64,000 nt of DNA from an uncultured Planctomycetota bacterium (lineage in GTDB: Bacteria > Planctomycetota > Brocadiia > CAIUPP01), in NCBI GenBank assembly GCA_903901045.1, contig CAIUPP010000029.1, positions 1 to 64,000 on the forward strand, written 5' to 3'. Position numbers and translations under genes: made by a program. The notes under the pieces are model-generated. The model was not told the origin of the DNA. It worked only from the letters and a program-made list of their open reading frames with translations, and did no database searches. Shown piece by piece: positions 518 to 52,413 of this stretch. The number at the start of each line of letters is the position of its first letter. The first letter of the stretch is position 1.

Positions 518-2689
518 TTAATAGGGCAACGCCAGGTTGCCCACCTGCACCTTCGGTTCTTCGAGAAAGTCCGGCGCGAAGAATTCCCTGCGCGCAGGAT
601 CGATCTTGCGCCGCAGGCTGAATGACAGGCTTTCGCCGGGCTTCAAGGCGCGCGCGGAGCCGTTCAGCGTGACCTTCTGCGCGCTGCGTCCCGGATTATG
701 CACCACGACGCTCTGATCGCTGACGCTGAAGAGCTCGATCCGCGTGCGTCCTCCGGAAACCTCCCAGGATTTCAGGTCCACCAGCGGATCTTCCGGCACG
801 ATCACCAGTTCCCCCAGTTGGTACGCGACGCGAAGTGAGTTGGCGGGGATCTCAAAGGATCCGGTCGTGCCTCCGTTGATCCAGAGCTGCGCCGGGGAGG
901 GGCAGTCCGGGTCGGTGTTCAGGAGTTCGATGGCCGTCACCTTTCGCCGCACCCCCGGGAGCGCTCCTTCGTAAACGGCATACCGGACCCGGTCGGAGGC
1001 GAGCAGGCGGATGTGCCCCTGCTCGCCGCCCAGAACGGTCCGAAGCACATCCTGGGTGAACGGCAGCAGTCCCTCGTCGGCGGGGTATTCCCAGGCCGAC
1101 ACGAGGAACGCTTTGCCTTTGCCCAGCGAGTGCTCGGTGAGGATCGGCTGGCCGGCCAACTTCTCCGGCGTCACCACGTAATAATCGTCGTGCCCGCTGA
1201 TGACGCGCGCGCCCGCCAGTTTCACGCGCGACGGAGTGAATGCGCCGAGAAAGCGCGGGTCGGTGCTGATTCGCCAGAAGGGGAACCGGTATTCGGGCAG
1301 CGAGGATTGCGCCATGCACTTGATGCCGCGCACGTCCTTCTTTTCCTTCCCGGTGATGCGAAGCCCGAACAGGTCGCGGAAGTCGCCGTTGCGATAGAGC
1401 TTCACCGGCTTGCCCCGGTCCGTTTCGACGCTGAGATGCGGCAGGGACATGACCAGGTGTCCGCCCCCCCTGACGTACTTCTTCAACTTCTCGTAAATCT
1501 CCGCGGTCATGGTGTTCCAGCCCAGGAACAGGAGGCAGCGGTAGGTTTTCAGGAGGGACAACGGCGCCTCGATGGGCACCGCGTCGTACTGGCCATAGGG
1601 CGGATTGCCGGAGAAGTCCATTTCCCCCTGAACGCTCTCCCTGGGCCAGTCCTCCTTGCGATGGAATCTATCCACGAGTCTCCAGCCCCGTTCGGCGGGA
1701 GCTTCGAGCCACTTCTTCCCCTTGAACTGTCCCCAGACGTACCGGTTCCAGAGCCCCGGCGCGCCGTCGAGGTTTCCATAGACCACGCCGAAGGTCACCT
1801 TCGGCTCCGCGCCGGGGCGGGTGTGGACGCGCGAGAACTGGTACGCTTCCCGCAGGGTGCGGCGCACGCGTTTCATCTCGGGGCTGTGGAACGCAAAGCT
1901 CCGGCCCGTGTTCTGGCCGTAACCGTAGTGGCCGGATTCGGGCCAGATGAAATGGGCTCCGCTGATGAGCGCATGATACAGGGAGGACTTCCATCGCTTG
2001 AGCCAGAGCCCGTCGAAGCTGACTCCGCCGTAGCAGGCCATGGCAATGTGCGTGCCCCAGGGCTTGCCATACGCCTTGGCCGCGCCCCGAACCGCGGCGT
2101 GCATCAGGTGCGGGTCGCCCGGCATGGATTCCAGGCAGAGAACGTCCAAGCCGGCCTGCGCGTGGTACTTGAAGACCAGCGCGGAATCCACGTCCAACAG
2201 CGGGCACTTGCCGAGCTCCCGGCGCTCGTAGGAGATGAACCGCTTGAGGTACTTCAGGTACTCGTCGCGCGCCTGGTCCATCCTCCGGACAGGCGGCAGG
2301 CTGGCGAAATTCGCGGCGCGCCGATTGATCAGATAGCTCTTGGGCCAGTACAGGACGCCGCCCGATTCGCCGATGGTCATGCGCCCGCCGTATTGTTCGC
2401 CGGCGGCGTCGATGATCTGCTCCAGGTCCGCCTTGGAGTAGAACTCGCTCCGGGGCATTTTCCGGCGCGCGGCGAAGCAGAGTCCCCGGTCCGTGTCGCC
2501 GCGGTAGAGCAACTCGCTGAAATAGAGCCTGATCCTGTGCCGGCGGCAGTACCGGGCCACCGCCAACGCCTCCCCTTTCTCCATGGGCAGCAGCGTCAAA
2601 GCGCATTCGCCCAGCTTCAGCGCCGTGAAATCCTTCATCGCCTGCACGCCGGAGGGCACGCTGGCCCCGATCAGGGTGCGATGGATCAT
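518..2689 (-). CDS. GH42-like glycoside hydrolase, amidotransferase-fold C-terminal half
   Basis: A 723-residue protein, best read as a TIM-barrel glycosidase of the GH42 type. Residues about 18-330 carry acidic motifs expected of a barrel active site (IGESGG near 105, CLESMPGD near 188, WPESGHYGY near 250). Residues about 380-480 resemble the GATase1-like trimerisation domain of beta-galactosidases (LLFLGWNTM, then KKYVRGGGHLVMSLP). The rest looks beta-rich. No signal peptide is seen, so it is probably cytoplasmic. The first ATG is chosen because GGAGAGGA stands 5 bp upstream; M18 (2638) is the alternative. It is the last gene of the LacI-headed minus-strand module, separated from its neighbour by 357 bp with hairpins, so it may be only partly cotranscribed. 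Which glutamates are catalytic and what the substrate is cannot be told from sequence. Confidence 0.6.
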   Translation of the reverse strand: MIHRTLIGASVPSGVQAMKDFTALKLGECALTLLPMEKGEALAVARYCRRHRIRLYFSELLYRGDTDRGLCFAARRKMPRSEFYSKADLEQIIDAAGEQYGGRMTIGESGGVLYWPKSYLINRRAANFASLPPVRRMDQARDEYLKYLKRFISYERRELGKCPLLDVDSALVFKYHAQAGLDVLCLESMPGDPHLMHAAVRGAAKAYGKPWGTHIAMACYGGVSFDGLWLKRWKSSLYHALISGAHFIWPESGHYGYGQNTGRSFAFHSPEMKRVRRTLREAYQFSRVHTRPGAEPKVTFGVVYGNLDGAPGLWNRYVWGQFKGKKWLEAPAERGWRLVDRFHRKEDWPRESVQGEMDFSGNPPYGQYDAVPIEAPLSLLKTYRCLLFLGWNTMTAEIYEKLKKYVRGGGHLVMSLPHLSVETDRGKPVKLYRNGDFRDLFGLRITGKEKKDVRGIKCMAQSSLPEYRFPFWRISTDPRFLGAFTPSRVKLAGARVISGHDDYYVVTPEKLAGQPILTEHSLGKGKAFLVSAWEYPADEGLLPFTQDVLRTVLGGEQGHIRLLASDRVRYAVYEGALPGVRRKVTAIELLNTDPDCPSPAQLWINGGTTGSFEIPANSLRVAYQLGELVIVPEDPLVDLKSWEVSGGRTRIELFSVSDQSVVVHNPGRSAQKVTLNGSARALKPGESLSFSLRRKIDPARREFFAPDFLEEPKVQVGNLALPY

Positions 2690-3046: not shown

Positions 3047-6000
3047 TCACTTGCCCAGTTCCGCCTGCATCTCGGCGGCGGCGCGAATGAGCTTCTCGCG
3101 AGCGGCGTCCATTTCTCCGTTCGACTGATCAACCGCCGCCGCGATGGCATCGCGGATCAGCGTCTGGTATCCGGTGGCGTCCTTGCCGGCGGCTTGCAGC
3201 TTGGCAGCCAAGTCCCGGCAGAGCGCTACCGCGCGGTAGTCCTGCTGCCCCTGGTACCACGCCTCCAGGCGGCGGCTGGGCATGATCTTCTTCGCATCCA
3301 CGTCCTCGTAGATGACCGCGTAGTCGGCGGTCATTGTCGGACGATAGGAACGGCCATCGTAGGGGTCGAACGGGTCGCTCGTCCGGTCGAGGTACGCCCA
3401 GAACGAGGTGCATCCGCTGAACCCGTCGCGCGCCGACTGCCACAGGAGGTTGCGGTAGACGGCCGGCGCCATGTCTTTGCTGAGGATGTGATAGGTCCAG
3501 ATTTCCCTGCCGCTCTGGGCCAACTCCTTGATGATCTCGGGCTTGGCCTGAAGGAACGGGCGATACGGCTCAAGGATGTCGTGAGTCTTCAGGTACACCG
3601 ACAGGTTCTTCGCCTCCTCTCCCTGCATGCTGGGATTGTTCATGACGCGCAACTTCGGGTCCACGTCCTTGATGTGCTTGACGGCTTCCAGCGCAAAGTG
3701 GGTTGTGCTGTTGGGATCATCAGGCGCGCCGCAGGCTTCATCCACCATGTAGAAGCAGAAATCGTTGTAGGAGTATCCCTTCGCGAACAGGTGGTCGCGC
3801 GTTGCCTTGAGCCATCCGGCGAACCCCTTCTTCCACGCCTCGGTGCCGTAGGTGAGCCGGCTCTTCTTGCTGGGCAGGCTGCGATAATAGGGGTCGGACA
3901 TGATGAGGTAGAAGACCACCCCCACCCGTTCCTTCGGAACACCGGCCGCGACGAACAGAGTGATGGACTTGTCGAGGGCGTCGAAGTTCATGGAGAGGAT
4001 GTTCCCCTCCGCGTCGAACTCCGGAAAAGCGTCGAGCTGGCCCGGGATGAATTCGATCTGGTTGACCCCGTACCGCGCCAGGTTCTCAACGACTTCAGGC
4101 AGGAGGACTCCCTTGCCAAGATTGAGGTAGGCGAACTCCTTGACGTACGGCTTGGAGAGATCCACCGGCGCGACTTCCAGCGAAATGTTGAAGTAGGACG
4201 GTTTGAAGCCGGAGTAGGAGGGATAGAACTTCATCCGGCGCTCATACTGGCCCGGCTCAAGCCCGTGGGTGTCTATCTTCATCCAGATGAGCGAGGTCGT
4301 CCGCGCCGGCGCCTCAACCAGACCGCAGGTGGGCAACTCCGCCAAGGCGTCCGGCGTCATGCCTCCGCCGGTCATCTCGACATAGACCGCGCGGCGCAGT
4401 TCAATCCTTTCGCGTCCCAGCAACTTCGCCCCCTGCGACAGCGGCGCGCCATCTGAGGGATCCTCCGCCAGCAGCCGGCCCAGCAGCGGCTTCTGGCTCA
4501 GGTTGGAGAGCATGAACCCGGTCTGCGCGAAGGTGTTTTGGCCCGCGAGCAGCTTGATCTCAGCGAGTTCCTTCACATCGGACTTCACCCGTTCATCCGG
4601 CGTGTGGCTGGCCCAGATGTCATCCTGCCAGAGAATGCAGGTTCGGCCGGCCATGGCAATCTGCTGCATCACGGCCGTCAGTTCGTCGGCGGCATTGCGC
4701 AACGCCGTCCAACTGGACGCCTTATCCCCGTCGGTCTCGATCCGCCGTTTCAGCGCGGCCAGCTTCGTCTGGGCGAGATTCGCGAGTTCCGGGAACTTGT
4801 CGGCGGGCAGGCCGGCCAGTTCCTTCTCCATGCGCGCCAGCTCGTTCTTCTGGTAGGCGGCGCGGCTTTCGAAGATCAGCAAACCGAAGCGCTGCGGCGC
4901 GTCGAACGTGTTCCCTACCGGCGCCCACGTACTCGGACCGCCGCCGCTCGGCCCCTCGCGGGTGAAATTGACTCCCCACGCGACGCCCGCGGCGTGCGGG
5001 TCGCTTCCGAGCGAGGCGAACGGAATCGCCATTTCGACCGTGTACCCCGGCCCCTCCCGGCGAACCGCCACCTGGGCGCCGGATTCCCATTTCGTGTCGA
5101 ACGCGCCCGTGCCGGGAGGGCTCACGGCATCCGTAAAGGTTCCGATCGCGTTGACGATGATCTGGTTGAACCCGCCGCGGCGCATCGGATCCAGAAACAG
5201 TTCCACGCAGTCGTCGGCCCACACCCTGCCGTCGTGGTCCTTGACAGCGGCCTTGGCCGGAACGTCTTCCGGGGCCGGCGCTCGATAGGCGACATAGAGG
5301 TTCTTGTCGTCATGGCAAACCTGGACCGTCGCGGCGGCATTCACGAACTTCGGGTCAGCCGCCAGCAACAGCCCGATGATGGTCGGGTGCGGTTTGCTCA
5401 ATACGGCAAAAGGGCGGGTTCTTTCGGCCTCCTTCCAGCAGGCGTCGTCCAGGTTGCCATCGATGGCCGGCGGGGTGGCGCAGCGCCTGGAGACGATGAC
5501 TGCTTCGTCCGTGGCGGAGGAGGAATCAGCGGCAGCGCCGGGCTTTCCTGCCGGAGTCTGCGGGGCGGGCGCCGCCCCATCGGGGGCCGCTTCGCCCGCG
5601 TTGTCCCAGATGCGAACGTCGTCCACCAGGCCCGTGAAGGGCCACGGAACCGTCTCACCCCACGTCCTCGACCCGATCCTGAAAATCGGGTAGCTGTCAG
5701 GCACTTTGCCAACGAGGTCGGCAAAGCACATGGACCCGGTGTCCATCTTCTCGAGGCGGCCGTTCAGATATATCTTCATCGTCCCGCCCTGCTCCAGCGT
5801 GACGCGGACGGTGTACCATTTGCCCACCTCAAAGTCGTGCGCCGCTGAGAGCAGCTCCACTTGCTTCTCGAGCTTGTTGCCCCCCGCGTCCATCACGATG
5901 AAATGCGCGCCGACGTGTTTCGCGCCGTCCAGATAGATCTCGAACATGCCGCGCCCATAGCTGTGCTCGGCGTAGCTCACAAGCACGGCGGGCCCCTTGA

Positions 6001-6313
6001 CCGGCGCGGTCGGCTTGAAGGAGAGTTCGATGGCTGCGCGCGTGTACTTCAGCTTCGGAAAGCTGTACACCGCCGTCACAATGTCCGGGCCGCAGGTGAC
6101 CGCGCCCGTGCCGTTGACGCCGCCGTTCTCCGACCACTTGGGAATGACGATGGAGGTCTGGGCCGCGCCTTCACTGACGGCGGCGCCGCCCTGCAATTTG
6201 TCGAAGTTCCAGTAGAACTGCGGCGCCGGCGCGTCCGCCGCAACGGCGGTCAGGACTCCCAGGTATGCGACCGCGAGTGCGCCCATCACGAACAGACACC
6301 AGGTGCGTTTCAT
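3047..6313 (-). CDS. Secreted LamG - CBM9-like - DUF4091-type glycoside hydrolase-like protein
   Basis: 1088 residues with a signal peptide (1-26, cut likely after AVAA). Residues about 30-240 are a concanavalin-like (LamG) jelly roll. Residues about 273-480 match a CBM9-like domain (PAIDGNLDDACWKEA, then DDCVELFLDP, then YTVEMAIPFASLG). The C-terminal part reads as a TIM-barrel domain of the DUF4091 kind: FCFYMVDEACG near 858, with a candidate catalytic Glu, and EAWYQGQQDYRA near 1021, the usual family signature. DUF4091 proteins are known companions of glycan-degrading enzymes; exact chemistry is not established. It follows the PcRGLX-like gene by 72 bp in the LacI module and is therefore likely coexpressed. 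Expected location is the periplasm or cell surface. Confidence 0.72.
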   Translation of the reverse strand: MKRTWCLFVMGALAVAYLGVLTAVAADAPAPQFYWNFDKLQGGAAVSEGAAQTSIVIPKWSENGGVNGTGAVTCGPDIVTAVYSFPKLKYTRAAIELSFKPTAPVKGPAVLVSYAEHSYGRGMFEIYLDGAKHVGAHFIVMDAGGNKLEKQVELLSAAHDFEVGKWYTVRVTLEQGGTMKIYLNGRLEKMDTGSMCFADLVGKVPDSYPIFRIGSRTWGETVPWPFTGLVDDVRIWDNAGEAAPDGAAPAPQTPAGKPGAAADSSSATDEAVIVSRRCATPPAIDGNLDDACWKEAERTRPFAVLSKPHPTIIGLLLAADPKFVNAAATVQVCHDDKNLYVAYRAPAPEDVPAKAAVKDHDGRVWADDCVELFLDPMRRGGFNQIIVNAIGTFTDAVSPPGTGAFDTKWESGAQVAVRREGPGYTVEMAIPFASLGSDPHAAGVAWGVNFTREGPSGGGPSTWAPVGNTFDAPQRFGLLIFESRAAYQKNELARMEKELAGLPADKFPELANLAQTKLAALKRRIETDGDKASSWTALRNAADELTAVMQQIAMAGRTCILWQDDIWASHTPDERVKSDVKELAEIKLLAGQNTFAQTGFMLSNLSQKPLLGRLLAEDPSDGAPLSQGAKLLGRERIELRRAVYVEMTGGGMTPDALAELPTCGLVEAPARTTSLIWMKIDTHGLEPGQYERRMKFYPSYSGFKPSYFNISLEVAPVDLSKPYVKEFAYLNLGKGVLLPEVVENLARYGVNQIEFIPGQLDAFPEFDAEGNILSMNFDALDKSITLFVAAGVPKERVGVVFYLIMSDPYYRSLPSKKSRLTYGTEAWKKGFAGWLKATRDHLFAKGYSYNDFCFYMVDEACGAPDDPNSTTHFALEAVKHIKDVDPKLRVMNNPSMQGEEAKNLSVYLKTHDILEPYRPFLQAKPEIIKELAQSGREIWTYHILSKDMAPAVYRNLLWQSARDGFSGCTSFWAYLDRTSDPFDPYDGRSYRPTMTADYAVIYEDVDAKKIMPSRRLEAWYQGQQDYRAVALCRDLAAKLQAAGKDATGYQTLIRDAIAAAVDQSNGEMDAAREKLIRAAAEMQAELGK

Positions 6314-6385: not shown

Positions 6386-8563
6386 CTACCGAATATCCGT
6401 CAATAGTCCCAGCTTTCTTGCGGTTTCAAAGAACGGGAACGCATAGGCAAAGAAGATGCCCCCCTGCGCCCAGTTGGCCTCCTCGCCCCATCGGTTCCGC
6501 CCCTCCATCATGGCCAGCATCAGCCGCGCCTGCCGCATGCCGGTCTCGATCCAGCGCCGTTCTCCCGTCAGTTCATATAGCACGTTCATAATGGGCAGTG
6601 AGTGGCAGGTCTGCCAGGCGGCGGGAAGCCGGTAGGACTGCCCATCCTGCATGATGAAGAAGCCGATGTCGCTCAGCCCCTTCTCAAGGGTCATCCTGCC
6701 GCCGGCCAGCAGCGTGTCGCGGGCCAGCTCATCCCGAGTCAGGCGCCAGTAATCGGCCACGCCGGTCAGCGCAATGAAGACATAGATGGGGGAGAACGCG
6801 TGCATGTGCGGCGGCAGCAGTTTGGTCGCCCCGCGGACAATCCATCGGCGCAGCCCCTCCACCACGCGCCGCCCTTCCAGCAGATACCGCTCGTCGCCGG
6901 AAACTTCGTAGTTGGCGCAGAGGCAGATCAGCAGCCATCCCCCCGCGCGCGCTTCATACTGGTCCAGACCGCGCCGACTGCTGTAACGCAGCAGGTACTC
7001 CCCCGTCTCGTTCAGGACGGACTTCAACCGCCTATCCCCCGTGAGGAAGTACGCCAACGCCATTCCGCTGGTCCACATGTGATCGGTGCCGACGCCCCCC
7101 GCCGTATGGTCGGCCCCGTGCACGTGCTGCCCGCCAACCTGCTCCCGATCGGTCGCCGCGTGAATCGTGTCCACGTCCGCCTGGTGGCGGGCGCAGGCCA
7201 ACCCCTGCAGCAGGCACTCGACGCGGCCCGTCCGGAGGTACTGCACGAGAAATCCGTAGGGGACCTGCGCCTCCTGGTTTCCCCAGACCGTGCCCTTCCC
7301 ATAGAGGCCGGGAAGCTGCCGCTTCTCGTAGCCGGGAGCGCGGAAGTCGCCGAAATGCCGCTCCCCCAACCCCCAGACGCTGGTCGAGTCGAACGCCGCA
7401 AACGTGTTGAACCCCGTGAACATCAGCTCCGTCATCGCGTCCATGAACGGCGCGCCGGTTTTGCCTCTGGGCAGCAGCGCCGGCATGACCCCCGAGGCAT
7501 TCACGCTCTCCACGGTTTGCCGGGGCAGGATGGGGGTCGTCAGCGAAGTGAGAAGCGCGTCCAACTCCCCCGCGTCGCGGTACGCGGCGACCGTGAGGGT
7601 GTGCGTCCGCGCCATGCCGGGGGAAAGACTGAACTCCTCTTCGGCCTCTGCCGGCCAGAGAAGCGCCTCCAGCGTTGTTCCGGTTGCGCGCATCGCCTTG
7701 GGGAAGGCCTGCCACATCTCGGCCAGCCCCAGGGCCAGGCCGCTTCCATCCCGGGAGATGCCGACGTAGCCGCGGTTCTTCAGCGTCTGCGCCCTCAATA
7801 CCTCGCCGCTTGATGCGATCACGGATGAATCGTTGGCGTCCTTCTGAATGATATATCCCGCCTTGCCGCAGATAAGGGGGGCGGTCTCAACTCCCCACGG
7901 CGCATTGGCGGAGGCGTAGCAGTACTCCGGCCGCTTGCCCGCCTCCACCACCGCCACCAGGGCAAGCTCTTTGAGCCGGATGGGCTCCGGGCCGACGTCG
8001 CCCAGGTAAGTGAAACGGGTGCGGCTCCACTCCTTGCCCCGGTAGAAGTCCGTTCGGGCCTCCCAGCCGATTCGCCTTGAACCGTCGGGCGAAACGACCG
8101 CCCCCGAGGTGCGCACGGTGGTCCGCAAGCCCCCCTTGCGCTCCAGCACGGTGGGCCCGGGCTCGCGGGTCGTCCACTCGCCGACGGCGTCGAGAACTCG
8201 CAGAGTGCTTCCCTTCAGCGCAACGCCTCGGACGCGCCTCGGCAGAGGCTCGCCATCCTCCACGCCGGTGGGTTCGACCGCAGGGAGCGGGAGAGGCAAA
8301 CCCGGCCCGTCCTGCTTTTCAAGCCGGAAGGTTCGCGTTTCAAGCGCATTCAAATCCGTCTGGAAATCGAGCAGCACCCAGCGGATGGAGCCGTCGCGCC
8401 AGCGCGAAAGCACCTCGGTCTGGAGGTCGACAGGCCGCCCGGCGCGGTCCTTGAGAACCAGCCCGTCCACCGCACTCGCCATCCCTTCGGGCAGCGCAAC
8501 GCCCCCCGTCACAGGGAACATCTGTCTCGCGATTCCATCCTGCTCGGTTACATGCACGTCCAT
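6386..8563 (-). CDS. PcRGLX/YetA-like protein (exo-rhamnogalacturonan lyase-like)
   Basis: 725 residues from the ATG at 8563. The N-terminal region has the signature of the RIFT-barrel domain of PcRGLX/YetA proteins: a segment GGVALPEGM, then a Q-rich stretch followed by SRWRDGSIRWVLLDF near residues 45-65. The middle and end (DHMWTSGMALAYFLTGD, then YELTGERRWIETG) look like an alpha-helical toroid. PcRGLX of a fungus cleaves rhamnogalacturonan; most bacterial relatives are untested. The frame also opens at a TTG 51 bp upstream, but the ATG begins next to the conserved domain, so it is preferred; its Shine-Dalgarno is poor. No signal peptide is evident, unlike the larger homologue at 33885-38054. 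It lies between the pseudopilin and the DUF4091 protein. Confidence 0.65.
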   Translation of the reverse strand: MDVHVTEQDGIARQMFPVTGGVALPEGMASAVDGLVLKDRAGRPVDLQTEVLSRWRDGSIRWVLLDFQTDLNALETRTFRLEKQDGPGLPLPLPAVEPTGVEDGEPLPRRVRGVALKGSTLRVLDAVGEWTTREPGPTVLERKGGLRTTVRTSGAVVSPDGSRRIGWEARTDFYRGKEWSRTRFTYLGDVGPEPIRLKELALVAVVEAGKRPEYCYASANAPWGVETAPLICGKAGYIIQKDANDSSVIASSGEVLRAQTLKNRGYVGISRDGSGLALGLAEMWQAFPKAMRATGTTLEALLWPAEAEEEFSLSPGMARTHTLTVAAYRDAGELDALLTSLTTPILPRQTVESVNASGVMPALLPRGKTGAPFMDAMTELMFTGFNTFAAFDSTSVWGLGERHFGDFRAPGYEKRQLPGLYGKGTVWGNQEAQVPYGFLVQYLRTGRVECLLQGLACARHQADVDTIHAATDREQVGGQHVHGADHTAGGVGTDHMWTSGMALAYFLTGDRRLKSVLNETGEYLLRYSSRRGLDQYEARAGGWLLICLCANYEVSGDERYLLEGRRVVEGLRRWIVRGATKLLPPHMHAFSPIYVFIALTGVADYWRLTRDELARDTLLAGGRMTLEKGLSDIGFFIMQDGQSYRLPAAWQTCHSLPIMNVLYELTGERRWIETGMRQARLMLAMMEGRNRWGEEANWAQGGIFFAYAFPFFETARKLGLLTDIR

Positions 8564-8850: not shown

Positions 8851-10137
8851 TCACCACGCGACGCCTGCATCCACGCCCGCCGCCACGTCCAGGAGGTGCC
8901 AGTTGAGGAGGCCGAGGTTCTGCCGGGGGCCCATGCTGTTGTTGCCGATATCGTAGTTGCTGTTGGGCATGAACGCCATGGCCGAGGTGAACGACCGTTC
9001 CGCGAAGACGGTGTCGTTTACGTTCGCCATAGTCGCGGGCCCGTCGCTATAAATGAAAACTTGCTGCGGGTCGCCATACCAGCTTGCATGGGAATCGCCG
9101 TAAAGCACGTTATAGCCGTCCCGGTGGCTGTACTGGCCCACGCCGTACGCGGTCAGGTAGTTGCCGCTTTTCGCCGGCGAATACACCTTGGAGAAGGTGT
9201 CCGCCACGATGGCGCGGCCTCCGAGCTGACGGAGGTTCTTGAACGGGGGGGCGCCCAGCGTGACCGTCACCTTCGGCGACGTGCCCGGCAATACCAACTG
9301 CGCGGCAGTGTACGGCCAGCCCGGCGTGCAGCCCATCGGGATGCCGCGATAGTTGTAGTTCGACTGCGCGCCGGCCAGGTGGAAACCGGTCACGGGGGGA
9401 TTTCCGCCGCCCCCCGCCAGCGAATAATTCCCGTTCGTCAGGTTCTTCGGGTCGTTTCCACTCAGGGCCTGGAGTTGAGCCACGTTCTTGACGATGGCCT
9501 TCGACGGGCTGGCATCCCTGCTGTATTCACAGTCCGCGATCATGTTCGTCGCGGTCGGGCAGAAGAACGTCCTCAGGTCGGTGAGGTAGCCGCCCGAGGC
9601 AAGGAACCCAAGCCCGACCGGAGCAGCCTTCAACGCGGTCTTGTCGTTATAGGCGACGTTCACGCCCGTGAAATCCTGGTGGACATTCCCCCCCATGGCG
9701 ATGGTTCTGTAGTACCAGGTCAACATGTAGGTTTGCGGGTACCGGTAGTAGTTGGTGTAGCGGTTCGTGTTCCCGTAGGTGTCGAAGTTGTAGTCCATCG
9801 AAGCGACCGTCTTGTACCAGTCGTTGGTGGACGGCTTGGGGCTCTGATCGGTGTATATCCCTTTGTCGGCGATGACCCCCATGTTGGCGGTGCTCAGCGG
9901 CAGCTCCGACCCCCACGCCGCCCAGGACGGCAGGTAGTCGCTGTAATCGCTGGTGTAAGAGGCCAGCGCCTTGGCCATCTGATTGAGGTTGTTCATGCAG
10001 GCGGTTCGGCGCGCCTTCTCGCGCGCGGCGGCCAGCGCCGGCAAAAGCATTCCGGCCAGAATGGCAATGATGGCGATCACGACGAGCAGCTCGATCAGCG
10101 TAAAGGCCGGCCACATCGCAGTCACGTGCCGTTTCAT
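8851..10137 (-). CDS. Type II secretion-like pseudopilin, H-X9-DG class
   Basis: 428 residues. The N terminus is a prepilin leader of 11 residues ending in Ala, followed by [16 protein letters not shown], the hydrophobic helix of type IV pilin-like proteins. The -1 residue is Ala rather than the usual Gly. Near residue 336 the sequence [12 protein letters not shown] fits the H-X9-DG motif of PVC pseudopilins, but with DS in place of DG. Family members are cleaved and methylated by a prepilin peptidase and exported; no peptidase, ATPase or secretin gene is in the window. The start has GGGAGGG four bases upstream. It lies 36 bp after the LacI regulator and before glycan-active genes, which implies coexpression with a substrate-specific locus. 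Confidence 0.85.
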
Positions 10138-10173
10138 GACGCCCTCCCATTACAATATTGACGCAGACACCCT

Positions 10174-11172
10174 CTAACCGCCCCGCGGCGGCGCGCAGGA
10201 GTCCTGAATCACCAATTCGATTTCCGCGGGCTTCACAGACACCTTGTCCGTCCGCTCTTTTCGCTCGATGAGCTCGATCAACTGATGCACGAAATCGACC
10301 GAAAGCCGCTCGAAATGCCAGTCCACCCCCGTAAGCCCCGGAACGATGCCGTCTCCCTTCGCGTGGGTTTCGCGGCTGAACACCGAGACATCTTCCGGGA
10401 CGCGCACCCCCTCCCTTGTCAGCCGGGCAATCAGGGCGCGCGCGTAACCGTCGTCAAACGCGTAGATCGCCGTGGGCAGCGGACGCAGATGCGCGATCTC
10501 CTCCACGCTCGGATAGGGGCGCGCCTCCCAATGATCCACCAGGGTCCGCAAGCGCACATCCAGCCCCTGCTCCTTCGCGAGGGCCTCGAAGGAAGCGCGG
10601 GCCTGCCGCTCGGGAATCGTGGTGATCTCGACCGTCACAATATCCCGATGCCCCAGCTTGTACAGGTACTCCGCGGCCATGCGGAACCCCTTGTCGGCCT
10701 GGCCCTCAACGACGATCTGCGTCGCGCCGGGAATGCGGTCCGTCGTCACCACCGGAACCTGCCGCGCCAGGGTAGCCATCTTCTCCACCAGGGCGGGCGA
10801 TACCACTCCATACACGATGCAGCCGTCGATCATCCGGTTCTCCAGCCGGCGGCGGGCGTCCGGCCAGACGATCGCAATCCGGTACCCCATTTCGCCGGCG
10901 GCCTGGACAAAAGCGCCGTACTGGAGTGCGCCGTTGGGGTGGGTCAGAAAAGCCAGGGGAGACGCGACGAGCAATCCGATGTTGTACGTCCGGCCGGTGG
11001 AAAGCGCCACGGCAAGAGGGTTGGGGACATATCCGAGTTCCTGGGCGACGTTCAGAATGCGCTGCTGCGTCGCGGCGCTCACTCCGGTGGTGGAGCGCTT
11101 ACCCCCCACCACACGCGACACCGCCGCCTTTGAAACCCCGGCTGCCTTTGCCACGTCAGCTATGGTCGGCAC
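10174..11172 (-). CDS. LacI-family transcriptional regulator
   Basis: 332 residues from a GTG start. Residues 2-45 form the LacI helix-turn-helix (TIADVAKAAGVSKAAVSRV, then the hinge region ELGYVPNPLAVALSTG), and the rest is a periplasmic-binding-protein-like effector domain (RTYNIGLLVASPL onward; VPEDVSVFSR near the end). GTG at 11172 is chosen because GGGAG stands 8 bp upstream and the HTH begins at once; the frame extends upstream only to a TTG at 11196. A near-consensus promoter and an AACCGGTT palindrome typical of LacI operators lie at 11279-11321, which suggests autoregulation. The pseudopilin and three glycan-active genes follow on the same strand and are the natural regulon. The effector is unknown. 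Confidence 0.9.
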   Translation of the reverse strand: MPTIADVAKAAGVSKAAVSRVVGGKRSTTGVSAATQQRILNVAQELGYVPNPLAVALSTGRTYNIGLLVASPLAFLTHPNGALQYGAFVQAAGEMGYRIAIVWPDARRRLENRMIDGCIVYGVVSPALVEKMATLARQVPVVTTDRIPGATQIVVEGQADKGFRMAAEYLYKLGHRDIVTVEITTIPERQARASFEALAKEQGLDVRLRTLVDHWEARPYPSVEEIAHLRPLPTAIYAFDDGYARALIARLTREGVRVPEDVSVFSRETHAKGDGIVPGLTGVDWHFERLSVDFVHQLIELIERKERTDKVSVKPAEIELVIQDSCAPPRGG

Positions 11173-11278
11173 AGCATCAACTCCCGCACAATGCAAAAAA
11201 ACTCGTTAGCTCACTTCTCCGCCGCCAGCAGAAAGCCCATCCAAAAACAGACGCAGATACCGCATAACTCCATATATC

Positions 11279-11321
11279 AACCGGTTCATTTGAATTATAC
11301 GCCTTGCCGCACTTTTGTCAA
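11279..11321 (-). promoter_or_regulatory. Near-consensus sigma-70 promoter with LacI-type operator
   Basis: On the minus strand, TTGACA (11321-11316), a 16-bp spacer, and TATAAT (11299-11294) form a perfect pair of hexamers. The palindrome AACCGGTT at 11279-11286, within TGAACCGGTTGA, lies about where transcription would start; LacI-family operators typically have such a central CG. The expected leader to the GTG at 11172 is roughly 110 nt. Binding by the adjacent LacI protein is inference. Confidence 0.8.
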
Positions 11322-20767: not shown

Positions 20768-20822
20768 GGAGCTCCCTCTTGGCCTTGCCTGCGGCCGATG
20801 GAAATAGCCGGTCCGCGCAGGA

Positions 20823-44969: not shown

Positions 44970-47900
44970 TCAATTTTCCTTCACGCCTAACGCCCCGATA
45001 TCCGTCCCGCCCTCGCCCGCGCCGCTGTTGGGGCTGCCGGGTTTCAGGCGGTAATCGCCATGCTCGGCATCGACGTAATCCGGGTCCTTGAAGATGGAAT
45101 GCTGGTCCTTGCCGGTGTCCTTCTGCCACGCCTTCAGGCCCATGTATTGCATGTTCTCATACCGCATGACGCCTTTGTGCGCTCCCCTTCCCCTGAAGAA
45201 GGGGTCCTTCACCGCGAACTCGTCCGTCGTGCCGATGGAGCCGTGGTTCTCGGCGAGATACTTGACGTAGTAATCCTGCACCTCCGTGCCGAAGTTGTTG
45301 TAGTCGCTGTCGAAGGTTGCCAGTTGCTCGTGCGTGGAGCCGATGAAGGAAATCTCGCAAATGAAGCAGTACACGAAGGAGTTGTTCCGGCACACGGCGC
45401 CTTCCAGGGACCCCGGACCGTACGCCAGGGCGCTCAGGGTGAGGCAGCAGGAGTTGCTGGTGAACTTCGACCGCGGGCTGTCCAGCAGCAGCGCCCCGCC
45501 CTCCATCGCGTACATAACATTGTGGTCTGCGGCGAAGCCGGGGGAGCGATGCGCGAAAAGCCCGGTGCTGGTCGGCATGGCCTGCCAATGATGGTTCCAG
45601 AACTTGCAATGGGAGACGGTCACGTCCGACGAGTCGGCCGCGTAGACGCCGGAATGCGCGAACCAGCGGATTTCAAATCCTCGGATGGTCACGTACGGCG
45701 CGCGTTCGAGCTTCAGGCAGGAATTGGCTTCGTGCCGGCCGTCGAGGATCACCGTGCCGGGGGTTTCCGCTTCGAGGGTGATCGGCGCGCCGGCGAGCCC
45801 GCCGTGGGTGAGCTTCGTCTCGCCGGGATACAGCCCCGGCATCAGGACCACGTGGTCGCCCGGCAGCGCGCGGTCCACGGCGAACTGGATCGTGCGCCAG
45901 GGCTTCTCGTGCGTGCCGGTTCCGTCGGCGTCTTCGCCCTGGGGGGAGACGAAGTAGGACTTCGCCGCGCCCTTGAGGGCGAACGTCGCATCCTCGCCCA
46001 CGGTCTTGTCGCCGACCTGGTCCTTGAGAATGATGCGATAGTGATAGGTCTTGCCGGATTGGACGGCGGGCGGGAGCAGCACGAGGTAGTTCGTCACGCG
46101 CGGCGTCGATCGCACCGACACCCAGTCCCCTCCGTCGGCGGAAATCCAGGAGCGTTGCACGTCCTTGGGCTGATCGAAGGCGGAGCCATACTTCTTGTCC
46201 GCCCCGTATTCAACCGTGGCCAGGCAGGGGGCGTCCGTTTCAAAGGAAAGGACCACGCCCTTGTCGTTGGCAAAGACGACCGGCGCGCGCTTGAGTTTCG
46301 GCCCCTTGTTCAACAACCGGACCATGAGCGTCTTGGGCGCGCTCCAGTTGCCGGCATTGTCGGAGACCGAGACGCTCACGGCGGCCACGGAGGCGTCCTT
46401 GGGAAGCGCCATATCCTTCCAGGTGGCGTACGGCTCGGGGGCGCTCCATTCGCCATTGCCGATGCGCACTTTCATCTGCGCCGGCTTGCCGGCGGCATCC
46501 TCCGCGCCGATGATCAGGCCGAACTGCGGCTCCGCGACCACCCATTCATCCGACCGGCTTTCCGGCCCGAGTTGCCGCACGAGGTTCCGCCCGCCGCCGT
46601 TCCAGGGATCGCGCTCAAAGTAGAGCTCGCCCGATCCTCCGGCCCGCTGCGCAGGCGCCATCAGGGAAACCGTCACCGTCGGCGGCTCGATGTCCTTGAA
46701 GTCCGGCCCCACCGCGCCGAACGCGCCACAGTTCTCGCCGTTCGAGCCCATCTTCAGGCACGGGCTGTCCGGCAGCAGGCGATAGTCCCCCGTCGCCGGG
46801 CCTGCGAAGCGCGGGTTCGCCTCGATGCTGTGCTCCCCCGCCCCCATCTTGCGCGCCAGGTCCAGGCTGGCCTGGAGTTGCTCGCGGTCCAGGCTCTGCC
46901 AGAAGCATTCGTAGTCCACCACCGTTCCCTGCACGATGGACGGCATGTAGATCGGCGCGGAGAAGCCGCCGACGATGTTGAAGCGCGAGACCCCCTTGGG
47001 ATGGTTGCCGGAACCGCTGAGGCCGTGGGTGATTCCGCCCACGAGGGTGTTGTTCTCAACGGTGTACGCGCTGACCGGGGCCTTGATGAAGATCCCGTTG
47101 TCGAACCCGACGCAGAGGTTGCGCCGCACTTCTCCCTCGATGGACTGGTAATAATACTGAATGGCGCAGTCATCCTGCATATCGACGGGGATCATGAACC
47201 GGTCGCGGATCTTGTTGAACCGGCAGTCCTCGACGATGGCGTGCTTGGCGGTGATGTAGACCCCGCCGGCGCAGTCGTCCGAGGTGCAGCGGAGAATCCG
47301 CATGTTCTCCACGCCCTCATCCACCGCCTGGAATCCGCGGACGCAGTTCCAGGCGTGGCAGTCCTCGATGGTGCTGTTCGCCGCGCGCAGGATGCAGCCG
47401 CAGGAATAAATCCAGCCGAAGTAGTTGCGGAAATTGAGCCCGCGCACGGTGGTGTTCTGGCGCCAGACCATCAAGCCGTTGCGGTCGCGGCTCATGCCGA
47501 GGTTGTGCGTTTCCGGAGCGCGCCCGTCGGTGGTGTGGAAGAACAGCTCCTTGCCGTCGGACCAGATGCTCGCGGGGAACTGCGTCACCGCCGCGAGGTC
47601 GGCGACGAGTTCGTACCGGGTGCGGGCGTCCGCTTCCCATACATCGGGGGCGGTGTCGCGCAGGTTGATGGCGGCGGGGATTTTGAACACCCCCGGCTTT
47701 CCTTCCACCGGCGCGGCGTTCGCGATCTTCTGCCCGCCGTCGAACACGACCTCTTCAAAGCTGCCGTCGGCGTTCTTTGCGGCGGTGATCAGCAGCAGCG
47801 GTTGCGGCCCCACGCCGCGATTCTCCGCCCGGCCCACCGGCAACTCCCCCTGCGCATAGACCCCCTTGTGGATGATCACTTCGCTCGCTTCCTCCTTGAC

Positions 47901-48080
47901 CGGGAGGAGCGAGAGCGCCTGGCGAAGCGTCGCGACCGGCTGCTCCGCCGTGCCGGGATTCTGGTCGTTTCCGGTCGTCGCGACGTGCACCGTGGCGGCG
48001 GAGAGCGAAGCGGCGGCGACGCAAGAGAACGCCGCTGCGCACAACCACGTCCAAGGGGAGTTCTCGGCTCTCATCGACAT
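44970..48080 (-). CDS. Secreted double parallel beta-helix protein (copy 1)
   Basis: About 1036 residues. The start is taken at the ATG at 48080, which has GGAG 7 bp upstream; the frame also opens 18 bp earlier. A signal peptide ends near SLSAA. The first beta-helix domain, residues about 30-440, opens VATTGNDQNPGTAEQPVATL and ends with GDYRLLPDSPCLKMG. A linker of about 280 residues with fibronectin-like strands follows (RTYHYRIILKDQ type; LYFERDPWNGGGRNL). A second beta-helix domain starts FVSPQGEDADG near 715 and ends GDYRLKPGSPN. Such proteins include polysaccharide lyases and hydrolases, but no catalytic signature is certain. It forms a gene pair with 43888-44919. Confidence 0.8.
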   Translation of the reverse strand: MSMRAENSPWTWLCAAAFSCVAAASLSAATVHVATTGNDQNPGTAEQPVATLRQALSLLPVKEEASEVIIHKGVYAQGELPVGRAENRGVGPQPLLLITAAKNADGSFEEVVFDGGQKIANAAPVEGKPGVFKIPAAINLRDTAPDVWEADARTRYELVADLAAVTQFPASIWSDGKELFFHTTDGRAPETHNLGMSRDRNGLMVWRQNTTVRGLNFRNYFGWIYSCGCILRAANSTIEDCHAWNCVRGFQAVDEGVENMRILRCTSDDCAGGVYITAKHAIVEDCRFNKIRDRFMIPVDMQDDCAIQYYYQSIEGEVRRNLCVGFDNGIFIKAPVSAYTVENNTLVGGITHGLSGSGNHPKGVSRFNIVGGFSAPIYMPSIVQGTVVDYECFWQSLDREQLQASLDLARKMGAGEHSIEANPRFAGPATGDYRLLPDSPCLKMGSNGENCGAFGAVGPDFKDIEPPTVTVSLMAPAQRAGGSGELYFERDPWNGGGRNLVRQLGPESRSDEWVVAEPQFGLIIGAEDAAGKPAQMKVRIGNGEWSAPEPYATWKDMALPKDASVAAVSVSVSDNAGNWSAPKTLMVRLLNKGPKLKRAPVVFANDKGVVLSFETDAPCLATVEYGADKKYGSAFDQPKDVQRSWISADGGDWVSVRSTPRVTNYLVLLPPAVQSGKTYHYRIILKDQVGDKTVGEDATFALKGAAKSYFVSPQGEDADGTGTHEKPWRTIQFAVDRALPGDHVVLMPGLYPGETKLTHGGLAGAPITLEAETPGTVILDGRHEANSCLKLERAPYVTIRGFEIRWFAHSGVYAADSSDVTVSHCKFWNHHWQAMPTSTGLFAHRSPGFAADHNVMYAMEGGALLLDSPRSKFTSNSCCLTLSALAYGPGSLEGAVCRNNSFVYCFICEISFIGSTHEQLATFDSDYNNFGTEVQDYYVKYLAENHGSIGTTDEFAVKDPFFRGRGAHKGVMRYENMQYMGLKAWQKDTGKDQHSIFKDPDYVDAEHGDYRLKPGSPNSGAGEGGTDIGALGVKEN

Positions 48081-48207
48081 GTTTTCACTCCATGGCATCA
48101 GGTGTAACCCTCTCCGCTTTGCGCCAACTCAATTCTCCCGGGCGCCGCAGCGCACGGTCACTCACGAGGCGAGATGTGGAGTCTCGTCAGCTCGATTCAG
48201 TCCCCAA

Positions 48208-49248
48208 TCAGGGTTTCTTTTCGACGGCCGCCACCCGGATGCCCATCGGCAGCCCGGAAGGCATTTCGCGCAATTCCAGGCCGGCGAAGTAGGCCGTTCC
48301 CTTGCCGTAGGTGTAGTCCAGCTCAATGCTCATGAGTCCCGTCCCCGGCAGCAGCTTCCCATCTTCAACCACGTGGTTGGTCTTCGTCTTGGGATCAAAG
48401 ATGCCGAACGCCGCGTTGCAGATGTACCGCCACGGGCATTCCCCTTTTCCGGCGAGCCCGACTTGCAGCTTGTAGTTGCCGTAGGCGCCGTCGGGACCGG
48501 TGACCGCCTTGCTATCGGCCGTGTAGAGCCACCCCGTCAGGACCGCGTAGCCGTCCTGCGCATCCTTCTCGGTCCTGACCCAGCCGGAGAGAGAGTAGCG
48601 CTTGCCGGCTTCGACGGCGGTCTGCTGGGACGCCTTGACCGTGGTGGCGGCGCCGACGGTGTTGACGATCTTCAGCGCCGGGGTGCCTTCGGCGTCGGAC
48701 TTCCGCACCCACTCGATCGTGCCCGCGGGCTGCCCCGCGTCGTAGATCCATCCGGCGGGCTTGGTGGCATCGTCCTTGTCGGCGACGGTCAGGTTCGCGT
48801 TGGCGATGAGGTTCTTGCCCAGGACCGGCTTGGCGTGGGCCATCTCAGGATAGCTCTTCGCCTGCTTGGCGGTCCCTTCGTCGAAATAGACCGAGTACGT
48901 GTCGATGGCCCCCGCCTGCATCGTGCCCAACCGCAGCCAGGCGAGCCTTCCCACGGCGGAACCCTCTTTGTCCGGGAAGAAACGGGAGGGGATTTCCTTT
49001 TCCTGCCCGGCTTGAACCAGCATCACGCGCGGGGAGTTCGGATCGAACGCGCCCTTCGCCCCGGCGCGCGCGAGCAGATCGGTGAAATCGACGTCCCACT
49101 CCACGAGCGCGTTGGCCTTTTCATCCAGCGCCTGGGCCGTCACCTGCGCGCGGTAGTTCCATTCCGGGTTCGACCAGGCGGGCGAAGCCGCCAATGCCGC
49201 CGAGCCCGTCAACGCCAACGCCAGCGCGATTACCATTACGTACCTCAT
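48208..49248 (-). CDS. Secreted protein, DUF2341-like head plus CBM4/9-like domain (copy 2)
   Basis: 346 residues from ATG at 49248, preceded by AGGAGG at 6 bp; a spurious ATG five codons upstream lies in that ribosome site. Signal peptide 1-20. The head (WSNPEWNYRAQVTAQAL, ALVEWDVDFTDLLARAGAKG) and the CBM-like domain (VKASQQTAVEAGKRYSLSGW, LPGTGLMSIELDY) match the paralogue at 43888-44919 in order and length. It differs mainly in the loop around residues 230-245 and in the cysteines, of which this copy has one near NAAFG. Expected outside the cytoplasm. Confidence 0.65.
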   Translation of the reverse strand: MRYVMVIALALALTGSAALAASPAWSNPEWNYRAQVTAQALDEKANALVEWDVDFTDLLARAGAKGAFDPNSPRVMLVQAGQEKEIPSRFFPDKEGSAVGRLAWLRLGTMQAGAIDTYSVYFDEGTAKQAKSYPEMAHAKPVLGKNLIANANLTVADKDDATKPAGWIYDAGQPAGTIEWVRKSDAEGTPALKIVNTVGAATTVKASQQTAVEAGKRYSLSGWVRTEKDAQDGYAVLTGWLYTADSKAVTGPDGAYGNYKLQVGLAGKGECPWRYICNAAFGIFDPKTKTNHVVEDGKLLPGTGLMSIELDYTYGKGTAYFAGLELREMPSGLPMGIRVAAVEKKP

Positions 49249-49299
49249 GCTGATCCTCCTCATAACCTGGAAATGAAAGAGATGCCCATGCGCCCGCGT

Positions 49300-52200
49300 T
49301 CAATTCTCCTTAACGCCCATCGCGCCGATGGTCGTACCGCCCTCGCCCGCCCCGATGTTGGGGCTGCCGGGCTTCAGGCGGAAATCGCCGTGTTCGGAAT
49401 CGACGTACTCCGGGTCCATGAAGATGGAATGCAGGTCTTTGTGCATCCCCTGCTGCCAGGCCTTCAGCCCCATGTACTGCTTCCCATCCAGCCAGATGAC
49501 CCCCTTGCGCGCGCCGCGATTGGTATAGAAGGGGTCCTTGGCCACGAACTCGTCCGTCGAGCCGATGCCGATTTTGCTTTCGGCGTTGTACTTGACATAA
49601 ACATCCTGGACGTTCGTGCCGATGTTATTGTAGTCGCTGTCGAAGGTCGCCATTTGCTCGGGGGTGTTGCCCACCAGCGCGAACTGGTCAATGCCGTTGT
49701 ACACGAAGGAGTTGTTCCGGGAGACGGAGCTCTCGGCGGACCCTGGCCCGAACGCGGCGGCATTGAACATGGCGGTGATGCTGTTATAGGTGATCCGCGC
49801 CCGCGAGCTTTCCAGGAACGTAATCCCCGCCGCCACGGCGTACATGACATTGTGGTCCGCCGCGAAGCGGGGGGAGCGGTGCACGAAGATTCCGTCGCCG
49901 TCCGGCACGCCCTGCCAATGATGGTTCCACATTCTGCAATGCGAGACGGTCACGTCCGACGAGTCGACCGCGTAGACGCCGGAATGCGCGAACCAGCGCA
50001 TCTCGAAGCCGCTGATCGTCACGTACGAAGCCTTTTCGAGCTTCAGGCAGGCGCCGGCTTCGTGCCGGCCGTCAAGAACCACGCTGCCGGGCGTCTCGGC
50101 TTCGAGGGTGATCGGCGCGCCGGCGAGCCCGCCGTGCGTGAGCTTGGCCTCACCGGTATACAGGCCCGGCAGCAGGATCACCCGGTCCCCGGGCAGCGCG
50201 CGGTCCACGGCGAACTGGATCGTGCGCCAGGGCTTCTCGCGCGAGCAGTTTCCGTCGGCGTCCTCGCCCTGAGGGGAGACGAAATAGGACTTCGCCGCCC
50301 CCTTGAGGGTGAACGTCGCATCCGCGCCCACGGTCTTGTTGCCGATCTGGTCCTGCAGAATGATCCGGTAGTGATAGGTTCTGCCCGTGGCCACCGCGGG
50401 GTTCAGCAGCACCAGGTAGTTCGTCACGCGCGGGACCGAGCGTTCCGACACCCAGTCCCCGCCGTCGGCGGCAATCCATGAGCGTTGCACGTCCTTGGGC
50501 TGCTCGAAGACGGAGCCGTACGTCTTGGTCGGCCCGTATTCGATCCTGGCCAGGCAGGGAGAATCCGTTTCGAAGGAAACGACCGCGCCCTTGTCGTTGA
50601 CGTAGACCACCGGGACGCCCTTGAGCTTCGGCCCCTTGTCCATCAGCCGGACGATGATCGTTTTGGGCGCGCTCCAGTTGCCGGCGTCGTCGGAGACTGC
50701 GACGCTGACGGCGGTCGAGACCGCGTGGGGGGGCACCGCAGCCTCCTTCCACGTGGCGAAGGGCTCCGCGGCGCTCCAGGCGCCGTCGCCGATGCGCATC
50801 TTCATCTGCGCCGGCTTGCCGGCGGCATCCTCCGCGCCGACGATCAAACCGAACTGGGCCTCCGCGACCGCCCATTCGTCCGAACGGCTTTCCGGCCCGA
50901 GCTGCCGCACGAGATTCCGTCCGCCGCCGTTCCAGGGATCGCGCTCGAAGTAGAGTTCGCCCGCTCCGCCGGCGCGCTGCGCGGGGGGCGTCAGGGAGAG
51001 CGTGACGGTCGGCGGCTCGATATCCTTGAAGTCCGCCCCCACCGGGCCGTACGCGCCGCAATATTCGCCGTTCGGGCCGACCTTCAGGCAGGGGCTGTTC
51101 GGCAAGAGGCGATAGTCCCCCGTTGCCGCACCCGCAAAGCGCGGGTCCAGCTCGATATTGTGCTCGCCCGTTCCCACCTTGCGCGCCGTGTCCAGAAAGC
51201 TCTGGAGCATGTCGCGCCCGAGGGGCTGCCAGAAGCAGTTGCAGTCCACCACCGTGCCGGGCAGAATCTGGGCGGGAGAGGCGATGGGTGTTGAGAAGCC
51301 GCAGATAATGTTGTAGCGCAGGATGCTCTTGGAATCGTAGCCGGTGCAGCCGATGCCCCAGGTGAGCCCGCCCAGAACCGTGTTGTGCTCGATGACGTAC
51401 GTGCTGACCGTCCCCTTCATGAAGATGCCGTTATTGAAGCCGACGCAGAGGTTGCGGCGCACTTCTCCTTCAACTCCCTGGTAGTAGTAGTGAATGCCGC
51501 TGTCATCCTGGGGGTCGGCGGGAATCATGAACCGGTCGCGGATTTTGATGAACCGGCAGTCCTCGACCACCACGTGTTTGGCGGTGGCGTAGACGCCGCC
51601 GGCGCAATCGTCGCCGGTGCAGCGCAGGATGCGCATTCCTTCCACGCCCTGGTCGGCCGCCTCGAAAGCGCGCACGCAATTCCAGGCATGACAGTCCTCC
51701 AGGGTGCTGTTCGCCGCGCGCAGGATGCAGCCGCTGGAGTAAACCCAGCCGAAGTAGTTGCGGAAATGGAAACCGCGCACCGTGGTGTTCTGCCGCCAGA
51801 CCATGAGACCGTTGCGAGCGCCGTTCATGCCGATGTCGTGCGCTTCCGGAGGACGGCCGTCGCTGGTGTGGAAGAACATTTCCGTTCCGCTGCACCAGAG
51901 GCTCGCGGGGAACTGGGCCACCGCCGCCAGGTCGGCCGCGAGTTCGTACCGCGTGCGCTTGTCCGCCTCCCAGACGTCGGGCGCGGTGTCGCGCAGTTTG
52001 AGGGTGGCCGGGATCTTGAACACCCCCGGCTTCCCTTCCACCGGTTCGCCCTTCGCGATCTTCTGCCCGCCGTCGAACGTGACCTCTTCGAAGCTGCCGT
52101 CGGGGTTCTTTCCGGCGGTGATCAGCAGCAGCGGCAAGGGGCCGAAATCGCGGTTCTCCGGCCGGCCCACGGCCAACTCATCCTGGGCGTAGACCCCTTG

Positions 52201-52413
52201 GTGGACGATCACCTCGCTGGCCTCCTCCTTGGCCGGGAGAAGCGCGAGCGCTTGCCGAAGCGTGGCGACCGGCTGCTCCGCCGTGCCGGGGTTCGCGTCG
52301 CTGCCGTTCACCGCCACGTGCAGCGTGGCGGCGGAGAGCGAGGCGGCGGCCACGCCAAGGAACGCCCCGGCAAACAATGACGCGAAGGGTCTCTTCCAGG
52401 TTTTCAGCGGCAT
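49300..52413 (-). CDS. Secreted double parallel beta-helix protein (copy 2)
   Basis: 1037 residues from ATG at 52413, which has AAAGGA 5 bp upstream; the frame runs 60 codons further into untranslated leader. Signal peptide ends near SLSAA. The two beta-helix domains (VAVNGSDANPGTAEQP near 30, FVSPQGEDADGNCSREKPW near 715) and the middle linker match copy 1 throughout. Differences cluster in the second helix (AITFLESSRARITYNS replacing LLLDSPRSKFTSNS) and the region around 330-400, where the groove of such helices binds substrate. That suggests the copies target related but distinct glycans. It lies 95 bp after the second pseudopilin. Confidence 0.8.
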   Translation of the reverse strand: MPLKTWKRPFASLFAGAFLGVAAASLSAATLHVAVNGSDANPGTAEQPVATLRQALALLPAKEEASEVIVHQGVYAQDELAVGRPENRDFGPLPLLLITAGKNPDGSFEEVTFDGGQKIAKGEPVEGKPGVFKIPATLKLRDTAPDVWEADKRTRYELAADLAAVAQFPASLWCSGTEMFFHTSDGRPPEAHDIGMNGARNGLMVWRQNTTVRGFHFRNYFGWVYSSGCILRAANSTLEDCHAWNCVRAFEAADQGVEGMRILRCTGDDCAGGVYATAKHVVVEDCRFIKIRDRFMIPADPQDDSGIHYYYQGVEGEVRRNLCVGFNNGIFMKGTVSTYVIEHNTVLGGLTWGIGCTGYDSKSILRYNIICGFSTPIASPAQILPGTVVDCNCFWQPLGRDMLQSFLDTARKVGTGEHNIELDPRFAGAATGDYRLLPNSPCLKVGPNGEYCGAYGPVGADFKDIEPPTVTLSLTPPAQRAGGAGELYFERDPWNGGGRNLVRQLGPESRSDEWAVAEAQFGLIVGAEDAAGKPAQMKMRIGDGAWSAAEPFATWKEAAVPPHAVSTAVSVAVSDDAGNWSAPKTIIVRLMDKGPKLKGVPVVYVNDKGAVVSFETDSPCLARIEYGPTKTYGSVFEQPKDVQRSWIAADGGDWVSERSVPRVTNYLVLLNPAVATGRTYHYRIILQDQIGNKTVGADATFTLKGAAKSYFVSPQGEDADGNCSREKPWRTIQFAVDRALPGDRVILLPGLYTGEAKLTHGGLAGAPITLEAETPGSVVLDGRHEAGACLKLEKASYVTISGFEMRWFAHSGVYAVDSSDVTVSHCRMWNHHWQGVPDGDGIFVHRSPRFAADHNVMYAVAAGITFLESSRARITYNSITAMFNAAAFGPGSAESSVSRNNSFVYNGIDQFALVGNTPEQMATFDSDYNNIGTNVQDVYVKYNAESKIGIGSTDEFVAKDPFYTNRGARKGVIWLDGKQYMGLKAWQQGMHKDLHSIFMDPEYVDSEHGDFRLKPGSPNIGAGEGGTTIGAMGVKEN

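Follow-up and report, generated by a model that had tools for sequence, protein, structure and literature searches.

Gene organization of the regulator-pilin locus

The window analyzed in this study is a stretch of 64,000 nucleotides from the genome of an uncultured Planctomycetota bacterium, a MAG of 4.77 Mb in 154 contigs that is 94% complete. It carries a gene cluster (module A), encoded on the minus strand, in which a LacI-family regulator and a long prepilin-type protein precede three large genes:

11294..11321, minus strand: promoter TTGACA-16-TATAAT, a 12/12 match (−35 starts at 11321, −10 ends at 11294)
11276..11289, no strand assigned: putative LacI-type operator ATCAACCGGTTCAT, a CG-centred palindrome just 3' of the −10
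10174..11172, minus strand: LacI-family regulator, HTH plus Peripla_BP_3 (PF00356, E 4.1e-15; PF13377, E 9.9e-20)
8851..10137, minus strand: long prepilin-type protein of 428 aa (PF07963 and PF07596, both over cut-off)
6386..8563, minus strand: PcRGLX-like protein, a possible polysaccharide lyase relative (PF19501, E 2.8e-6, over cut-off)
3047..6313, minus strand: LamG-CBM9 protein with an N-terminal hydrophobic signal (PF13385, E 4.7e-12; PF06452, E 2.9e-12)
518..2689, minus strand: large protein with weak similarity to the GH42 trimerisation domain GH42M (PF08532, E 4e-4, below cut-off)

The original prediction, made from the bare sequence of the window, had placed a LacI regulator and a pseudopilin 36 bp apart behind one shared, strong promoter-operator; the spacing and the shared promoter are confirmed, and the operator is a putative one. 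Pfam recovers the two genes with a gap of 36 bp, and the protein encoded at 10174-11172 (whose start is uncertain and may extend to 11196) carries the LacI HTH and the periplasmic-binding-protein-like effector domain that define the LacI family, both over cut-off. Between positions 6200 and 11600 the 12/12 promoter is the sole promoter-like site; none lies ahead of the pilin gene. Sequences resembling the putative operator with at most two mismatches occur three times in the 64-kb window where 0.4 are expected, the only exact copy being that at 11276-11289, and a convincing recurrence elsewhere in the window was not found.

The genes downstream had been described as PcRGLX-like, LamG-CBM9-DUF4091 and GH42-like. 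All three lie on the expected strand, but the domain assignments had to be trimmed: only the N-terminal domain of the PcRGLX-like protein scores over cut-off while its other two domains are sub-threshold, LamG and CBM9 are present in the second protein but DUF4091 finds no Pfam match even at E ≤ 1, and the GH42M similarity of the third is sub-threshold. The PcRGLX-like and GH42-like proteins have no obvious signal peptide. An attenuator or a terminator was considered for the gap between the pilin and PcRGLX-like genes (8564-8853); neither is supported there, since the RNA structure of this segment is ordinary (z −0.17) and a terminator-like site is absent.

A second pair had been announced at 52508-56646, and this cluster (module B) is indeed present, with two long pilins behind one regulator:

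56618..56646, minus strand: promoter TTGACT-17-TACAAT
55411..56520, minus strand: regulator with GntR-HTH and LacI-type sensor domain (PF00392, E 2.5e-10; PF13377, E 4e-33); an alternative upstream ATG at 56598 is possible
54050..55414, minus strand: long pilin 1, overlapping the GntR gene by 4 bp
52508..53860, minus strand: long pilin 2
49300..52413 and 44970..48080, minus strand: secreted beta-helix proteins (Chondroitinase_B/Pel9A-like, sub-threshold)
48208..49236, minus strand: small secreted protein within the module B stretch 44970..52413

Regulator-pilin pairing extends across the genomes of two genera

Gene calls made with a home-made gene caller yielded 87 prepilin N-termini, 17 LacI genes and 41 GntR genes over cut-off in the source genome. 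A prepilin-type gene adjoins 35 of the 58 LacI/GntR genes, 25 times in tandem downstream and 10 times divergently, where 0.85 adjacencies are expected; this corresponds to an approximately 40-fold excess over chance. The comparison with shuffled gene order that the original prediction had proposed pointed the same way: when genes were shuffled locally, within the ~20-kb stretches holding both a regulator and a pilin, 3.4 tandem and 1.1 divergent pairs (4.5 in total) were obtained versus 24 and 10 (34 in total) observed, and pairing at chance level thus did not occur.

In G001, the single further genome from this family and the representative of a second genus, 23 of 39 regulators are paired versus 0.59 expected. 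Pairing of regulators with pilins is hence the rule throughout the genomes of both genera. Genomes from three other families of the phylum show immediate adjacency in 9/42, 5/16 and 3/16 cases (fewer than one expected in each, estimated by the same formula), with shorter pilins of ~225-340 aa; the association is therefore wider than the source family, but much weaker outside of it.

Several loci depart from the common gene order. On contig C37 of genome G000 (25704-28154; L039) the order is reversed, and a 12/12 promoter precedes a pilin gene that is followed by the GntR gene. A large protein is encoded between regulator and pilin on contigs C35, C55, C63 and C65 (L014, L065, L052 and L069, respectively), with a strong promoter preceding the regulator, and on contig C62 (11200-13200; L050) the long pilin is preceded by an AraC-type regulator instead of a LacI/GntR protein. 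Two to three long pilins stand in series behind one regulator at L130, L140, L146, L089 and L158 of the second genus, as they do at 52508-55414 of the window, an arrangement that suggests hetero-oligomeric or duplicated heads. Full-length DUF1559 genes of a different planctomycete family adjoin regulators that are short GntR proteins or belong to other sugar types (L245, L246 and L236 of genome G066); this genome has ~130 DUF1559 candidates, and such neighbors provide a lead to the function of DUF1559 proteins at large.

In tandem pairs, promoters precede the regulator and not the pilin

Among the tandem pairs, 19 of 24 regulators have a sigma-70-like promoter matching at least 10 of 12 positions ahead of them, but none of 24 pilins and none of 33 first downstream genes does. 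When the two genes are divergent, the pilin is preceded by a promoter in nine of 10 cases. Mononucleotide-shuffled controls gave counts of 0.6 or fewer. For comparison, a promoter of at least 11/12 was found before 23 of 425 other genes with an upstream gap, and several of these 23 are themselves regulators or pilins of similar operons in another gene order. In the second genus, 19 of the 21 pairs listed (one locus appears twice) combine a regulator promoter of at least 9/12, mostly 10/12 or better, with nothing above 7/12 before the pilin; at some of these loci the regulator and pilin genes overlap by 4 and 13 bp. Several LacI loci possess a CG-centred palindrome at the position equivalent to that in module A, with a sequence that is different at each locus. 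This layout is as expected for an autoregulated operon that is released by an effector, repression itself being deduced from membership in the LacI family.

The pilins travel with secreted proteins of a glycan-degradation type

The 83 proteins encoded 3' of paired pilins match, in Pfam, LamG (16 proteins), GH123_N (8), CBM9 (7) and DUF4838 (6), and the remainder include GH2, GH4, GH38, GH42, GH78 and beta-helix proteins. None of the first four families is among those, listed up to a limit of 25, with at least two matches in 84 control proteins encoded more than 7 kb from any pilin. Thirteen of these 84 controls match PF01208; URO-D/MtaA-like genes (methylcobamide methyltransferase-type) are numerous in the window (11559-13787, 38077-39222 and 41392-42519) and elsewhere in the genome, and some of them adjoin glycan modules.

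At least one secreted downstream protein, as called by a simple home-made hydrophobicity rule, is encoded at 33 of the 38 loci where the regulator has a pilin versus four of the 17 where it has none (Fisher P 8.6e-6), and one of these four, the C37 locus, does carry a pilin upstream of its regulator. The pilin thus travels with extracytoplasmic glycan work and not with sugar regulation as such. The products of the LacI/GntR loci that have no pilin, about one-third of the total, are mostly cytoplasmic. The third sugar-type regulator of the window, a GntR protein (20823-21899) without a pilin, is followed within 17666-21899 by a 1033-aa DUF5107-TPR protein lacking a signal peptide and then by cytoplasmic-type genes; with its non-secreted neighbors, this locus fits the rule that pilins accompany secreted loci only. 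The suggestion that each glycan locus has its own pilin under its own switch is consequently supported in part, by the pairing rule, the shared promoter and the secreted, glycan-active context in two genera, but it does not extend to the third of LacI/GntR loci that are devoid of a pilin.

A constant assembly helix carries variable heads

The module A pilin has the N-terminus of a class III prepilin, with cleavage site, Phe+1/Glu+5 and hydrophobic helix (PF07963 and TIGR02532 over cut-off). The motif AFTLIELL with its invariant Glu is present in 53 of 53 aligned proteins, and residues 10-47, the assembly helix, are on average 95% identical among 50 family members. In contrast, the head segments 80-165, 200-255, 316-334 and 361-405 are only 16-22% identical (16-27% for the variable segments overall) and rich in indels. 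Conserved elements frame them, chiefly one of 22 protein letters at 76%. A common assembly helix joined to locus-specific heads is what a shared fibre with exchangeable heads would need.

The match to PF07596 (DUF1559/SBP_bac_10) scores 34.9 versus a cut-off of 23.3 bits but covers profile positions 2-37 of 268 only, so that the protein is no full-length DUF1559 member and its head lies outside the profile. It also falls far short of the GspG equivalog TIGR01710 (38.1 versus 88.85 bits). An AlphaFold model (pTM 0.84) has a helix at residues 13-63 and C-terminal strands. Its best structural alignments are to pilins, at low Z (PilA4 6xxd, 5.1; 6t8s, 3.4; 3sok, 2.3), sequence profiles match pilins via the helix only, and Foldseek alone gave no significant match for the pilin. 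Neither Foldseek nor VIA-align recognized a carbohydrate-binding or other significant fold in the full protein or in the head alone. When 294 genomes from across the phylum were sampled and a small number of candidates was scored in each, two proved to contain close relatives of the head, and a scan of named genomes with the single pilin protein returned Planctomycetota bacterium UR.bin147 as the only relative. The genome encodes T4P/T2SS machinery, comprising PilB/GspE- and PilT-like ATPases, GspF platform proteins, secretins and GspG, and some of its clusters are of the T2SS type, combining secretin, GspE, GspF and GspG.

Regulators and pilins have little joint ancestry

The phylogeny of the regulators shows hardly any agreement with that of the pilins (Mantel r 0.11, P ~0.05, with saturated distances), and reciprocal best hits between the two genera, six for regulators and six for pilins, are concordant in no case. 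A strict one-glycan-one-pilin partnership over time is therefore not established; so little joint ancestry suggests that heads are swapped or evolve fast. A correlation of regulators with downstream genes (r 0.44) was discarded because the downstream proteins compared are non-homologous.

Discussion

The explanation that we favor, and to which we give about an even chance, is that the LacI-pilin pair heads an autoregulated, sugar-inducible glycan operon whose pilin head binds glycan at the cell surface; as part of it, and held with the same confidence, the genome would contain some 35-40 operons of this kind. The regulator would keep its own promoter repressed, and release it when the periplasmic-binding-protein-like domain takes up an oligosaccharide from the target glycan, whereupon the pilin and the secreted enzymes would be produced together. 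With the help of prepilin peptidase, a machine of the T4P/T2SS type would add the pilin to a fibre or pseudopilus common to all loci, where its variable head would bind the polymer that is degraded by its own operon. Substrate, secreted enzymes and cell surface would in this way be kept together, as they are by the pili-like fibres of Planctopirus in the case of dextran. Glycan capture would be the most likely role of the pilin judging from the variable heads, the secreted context and the precedents discussed below. Counting against the favored explanation are the failure to recognize a carbohydrate-binding fold in the head, the poor agreement between regulator and pilin ancestries, and the missing signal peptides of the PcRGLX-like and GH42-like proteins in module A. 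We entertain more tentatively a further-reaching version, a modular fibre repertoire to which each operon contributes a sugar-responsive repressor and a pilin of its own. All of these pilins would enter the same filament by their constant helix, each with a hypervariable head for the glycan of its operon, and the cell would thereby change the tips of its pili to suit the sugars at hand.

The main rival, which we regard as rather unlikely, holds that the head recognizes the enzymes of its own operon and that a T2SS pseudopilus pushes them across, or holds them at, the outer membrane. Such a secretion adaptor would account for the co-occurrence of pilins with secreted proteins (33/38 versus 4/17) and could draw on the T2SS-type clusters of the genome; moreover, T2SS export of alginate lyases is proposed by the authors of a study on Verruconatronum alginivorum (PMC13274419). 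However, downstream enzymes share LamG, GH123_N and CBM9 across loci, which would make one adaptor per locus costly, and the GspG equivalog score lies far under its cut-off. Canonical T2SS moreover serve many substrates with a single pseudopilin set, which likewise counts against this proposal.

Type IV pili can be mechanosensors, and the pilin is always found beside the regulator and not inside the enzyme series. It could accordingly be a surface signal or adhesin reporting contact with a particle or glycan, with a purely regulatory or developmental role and no direct handling of glycan. We consider this improbable: as LacI/GntR repressors, the regulators are cytoplasmic and sense through domains of a sugar type, neither a membrane partner nor a two-component one was seen beside them, the heads are locus-specific, and loci with cytoplasmic products only have no pilins. 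Very improbable in our view is that there is no functional coupling at all and that DUF1559-type pilins are selfish or hitch-hiking paralogues which landed by chance behind strong, regulated promoters. Large DUF1559 families across the Planctomycetota (68 paralogues in P. limnophila; PMC10632474) and the weak co-evolution of regulator and pilin would fit such a history, but the excess of adjacency, the consistent orientation and promoter placement, the recurrence of the pattern in a second genus and the specific tracking of secreted loci all oppose it, as does the substrate induction of a homologue in Verruconatronum (PMC13274419).

Should every DUF1559-type protein turn out to serve one particular glycan operon at the cell surface, the signature of a LacI/GntR gene, a long pilin and a secreted enzyme could locate glycan loci in uncultured Planctomycetota and allow their substrates to be guessed. 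Capture by pilins would then join SusCD and ABC systems as a route for polysaccharides, and the modular fibre repertoire, if it exists, would be the equivalent, built from pilins, of surface glycan-binding proteins of the SusD type.

Comparison with known systems

DUF1559-type prepilin-like proteins form the largest paralogue family of Planctopirus limnophila, with 68 members of no known function (PMC10632474). The large paralogous families of DUF1559/SBP_bac_10 proteins in Planctomycetia share with the pilins described here the N-terminal methylation motif and the start of DUF1559 (PMC10632474; PMC2754498). Unlike those proteins, which match PF07596 over positions 1-267, the pilins described here match ~36 residues of DUF1559, and their heads are longer and have a different conserved frame. 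If each DUF1559-type protein belonged in this way to a single glycan operon as its surface component, the old question of their function could be put to the test.

The original prediction knew of no described mechanism of this kind. This can stand insofar as we found no description of a one-to-one regulator-pilin rule in PVC bacteria in the open-access literature, but several precedents call for toning it down (PMC13274419; PMC5394234; PMC13174399). In V. alginivorum, a member of another phylum of the PVC group, a pulG-like pseudopilin with 67 homologues in the genome lies, as here, inside a glycan-degradation cluster, that for alginate, and is up-regulated on alginate; the sections of that account drawn on here report neither a rule linking regulators and pilins nor an analysis of promoters or of variable heads (PMC13274419). 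The pili-like fibres and crateriform structures of P. limnophila bind dextran, a case of planctomycete fibres contacting a polysaccharide before its uptake, but the fibre proteins were not identified there and no link to glycan operons was made (PMC5394234). MUL2A (Amuc_1102) of Akkermansia, linked to mucin utilisation, is likewise described as a pilin-like protein tied to glycan capture in a PVC bacterium (PMC13174399); it is a single conserved locus, whereas here there is one pilin per operon. T4P-mediated adhesion to chitin has been ascribed to Fimbriiglobus (as cited in PMC11131199). That glycan clusters of PVC bacteria can contain pilins, and that DUF1559 proteins form large families, was thus already known, while repressor-pilin operon heads in a one-to-one, genome-wide arrangement are apparently new, as no report of them was found.

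There is also a likeness to the polysaccharide utilisation loci (PUL) of Bacteroidota (SusCD with a dedicated sensor), in which one regulator, a surface glycan-binding protein and enzymes are likewise combined for each glycan. No SusC or SusD was among the Pfam families, up to 25 per tally, listed for the 83 downstream proteins; in the loci described here, unlike in a PUL, the protein at the head of the operon is a pilin and the regulator is a LacI/GntR repressor.
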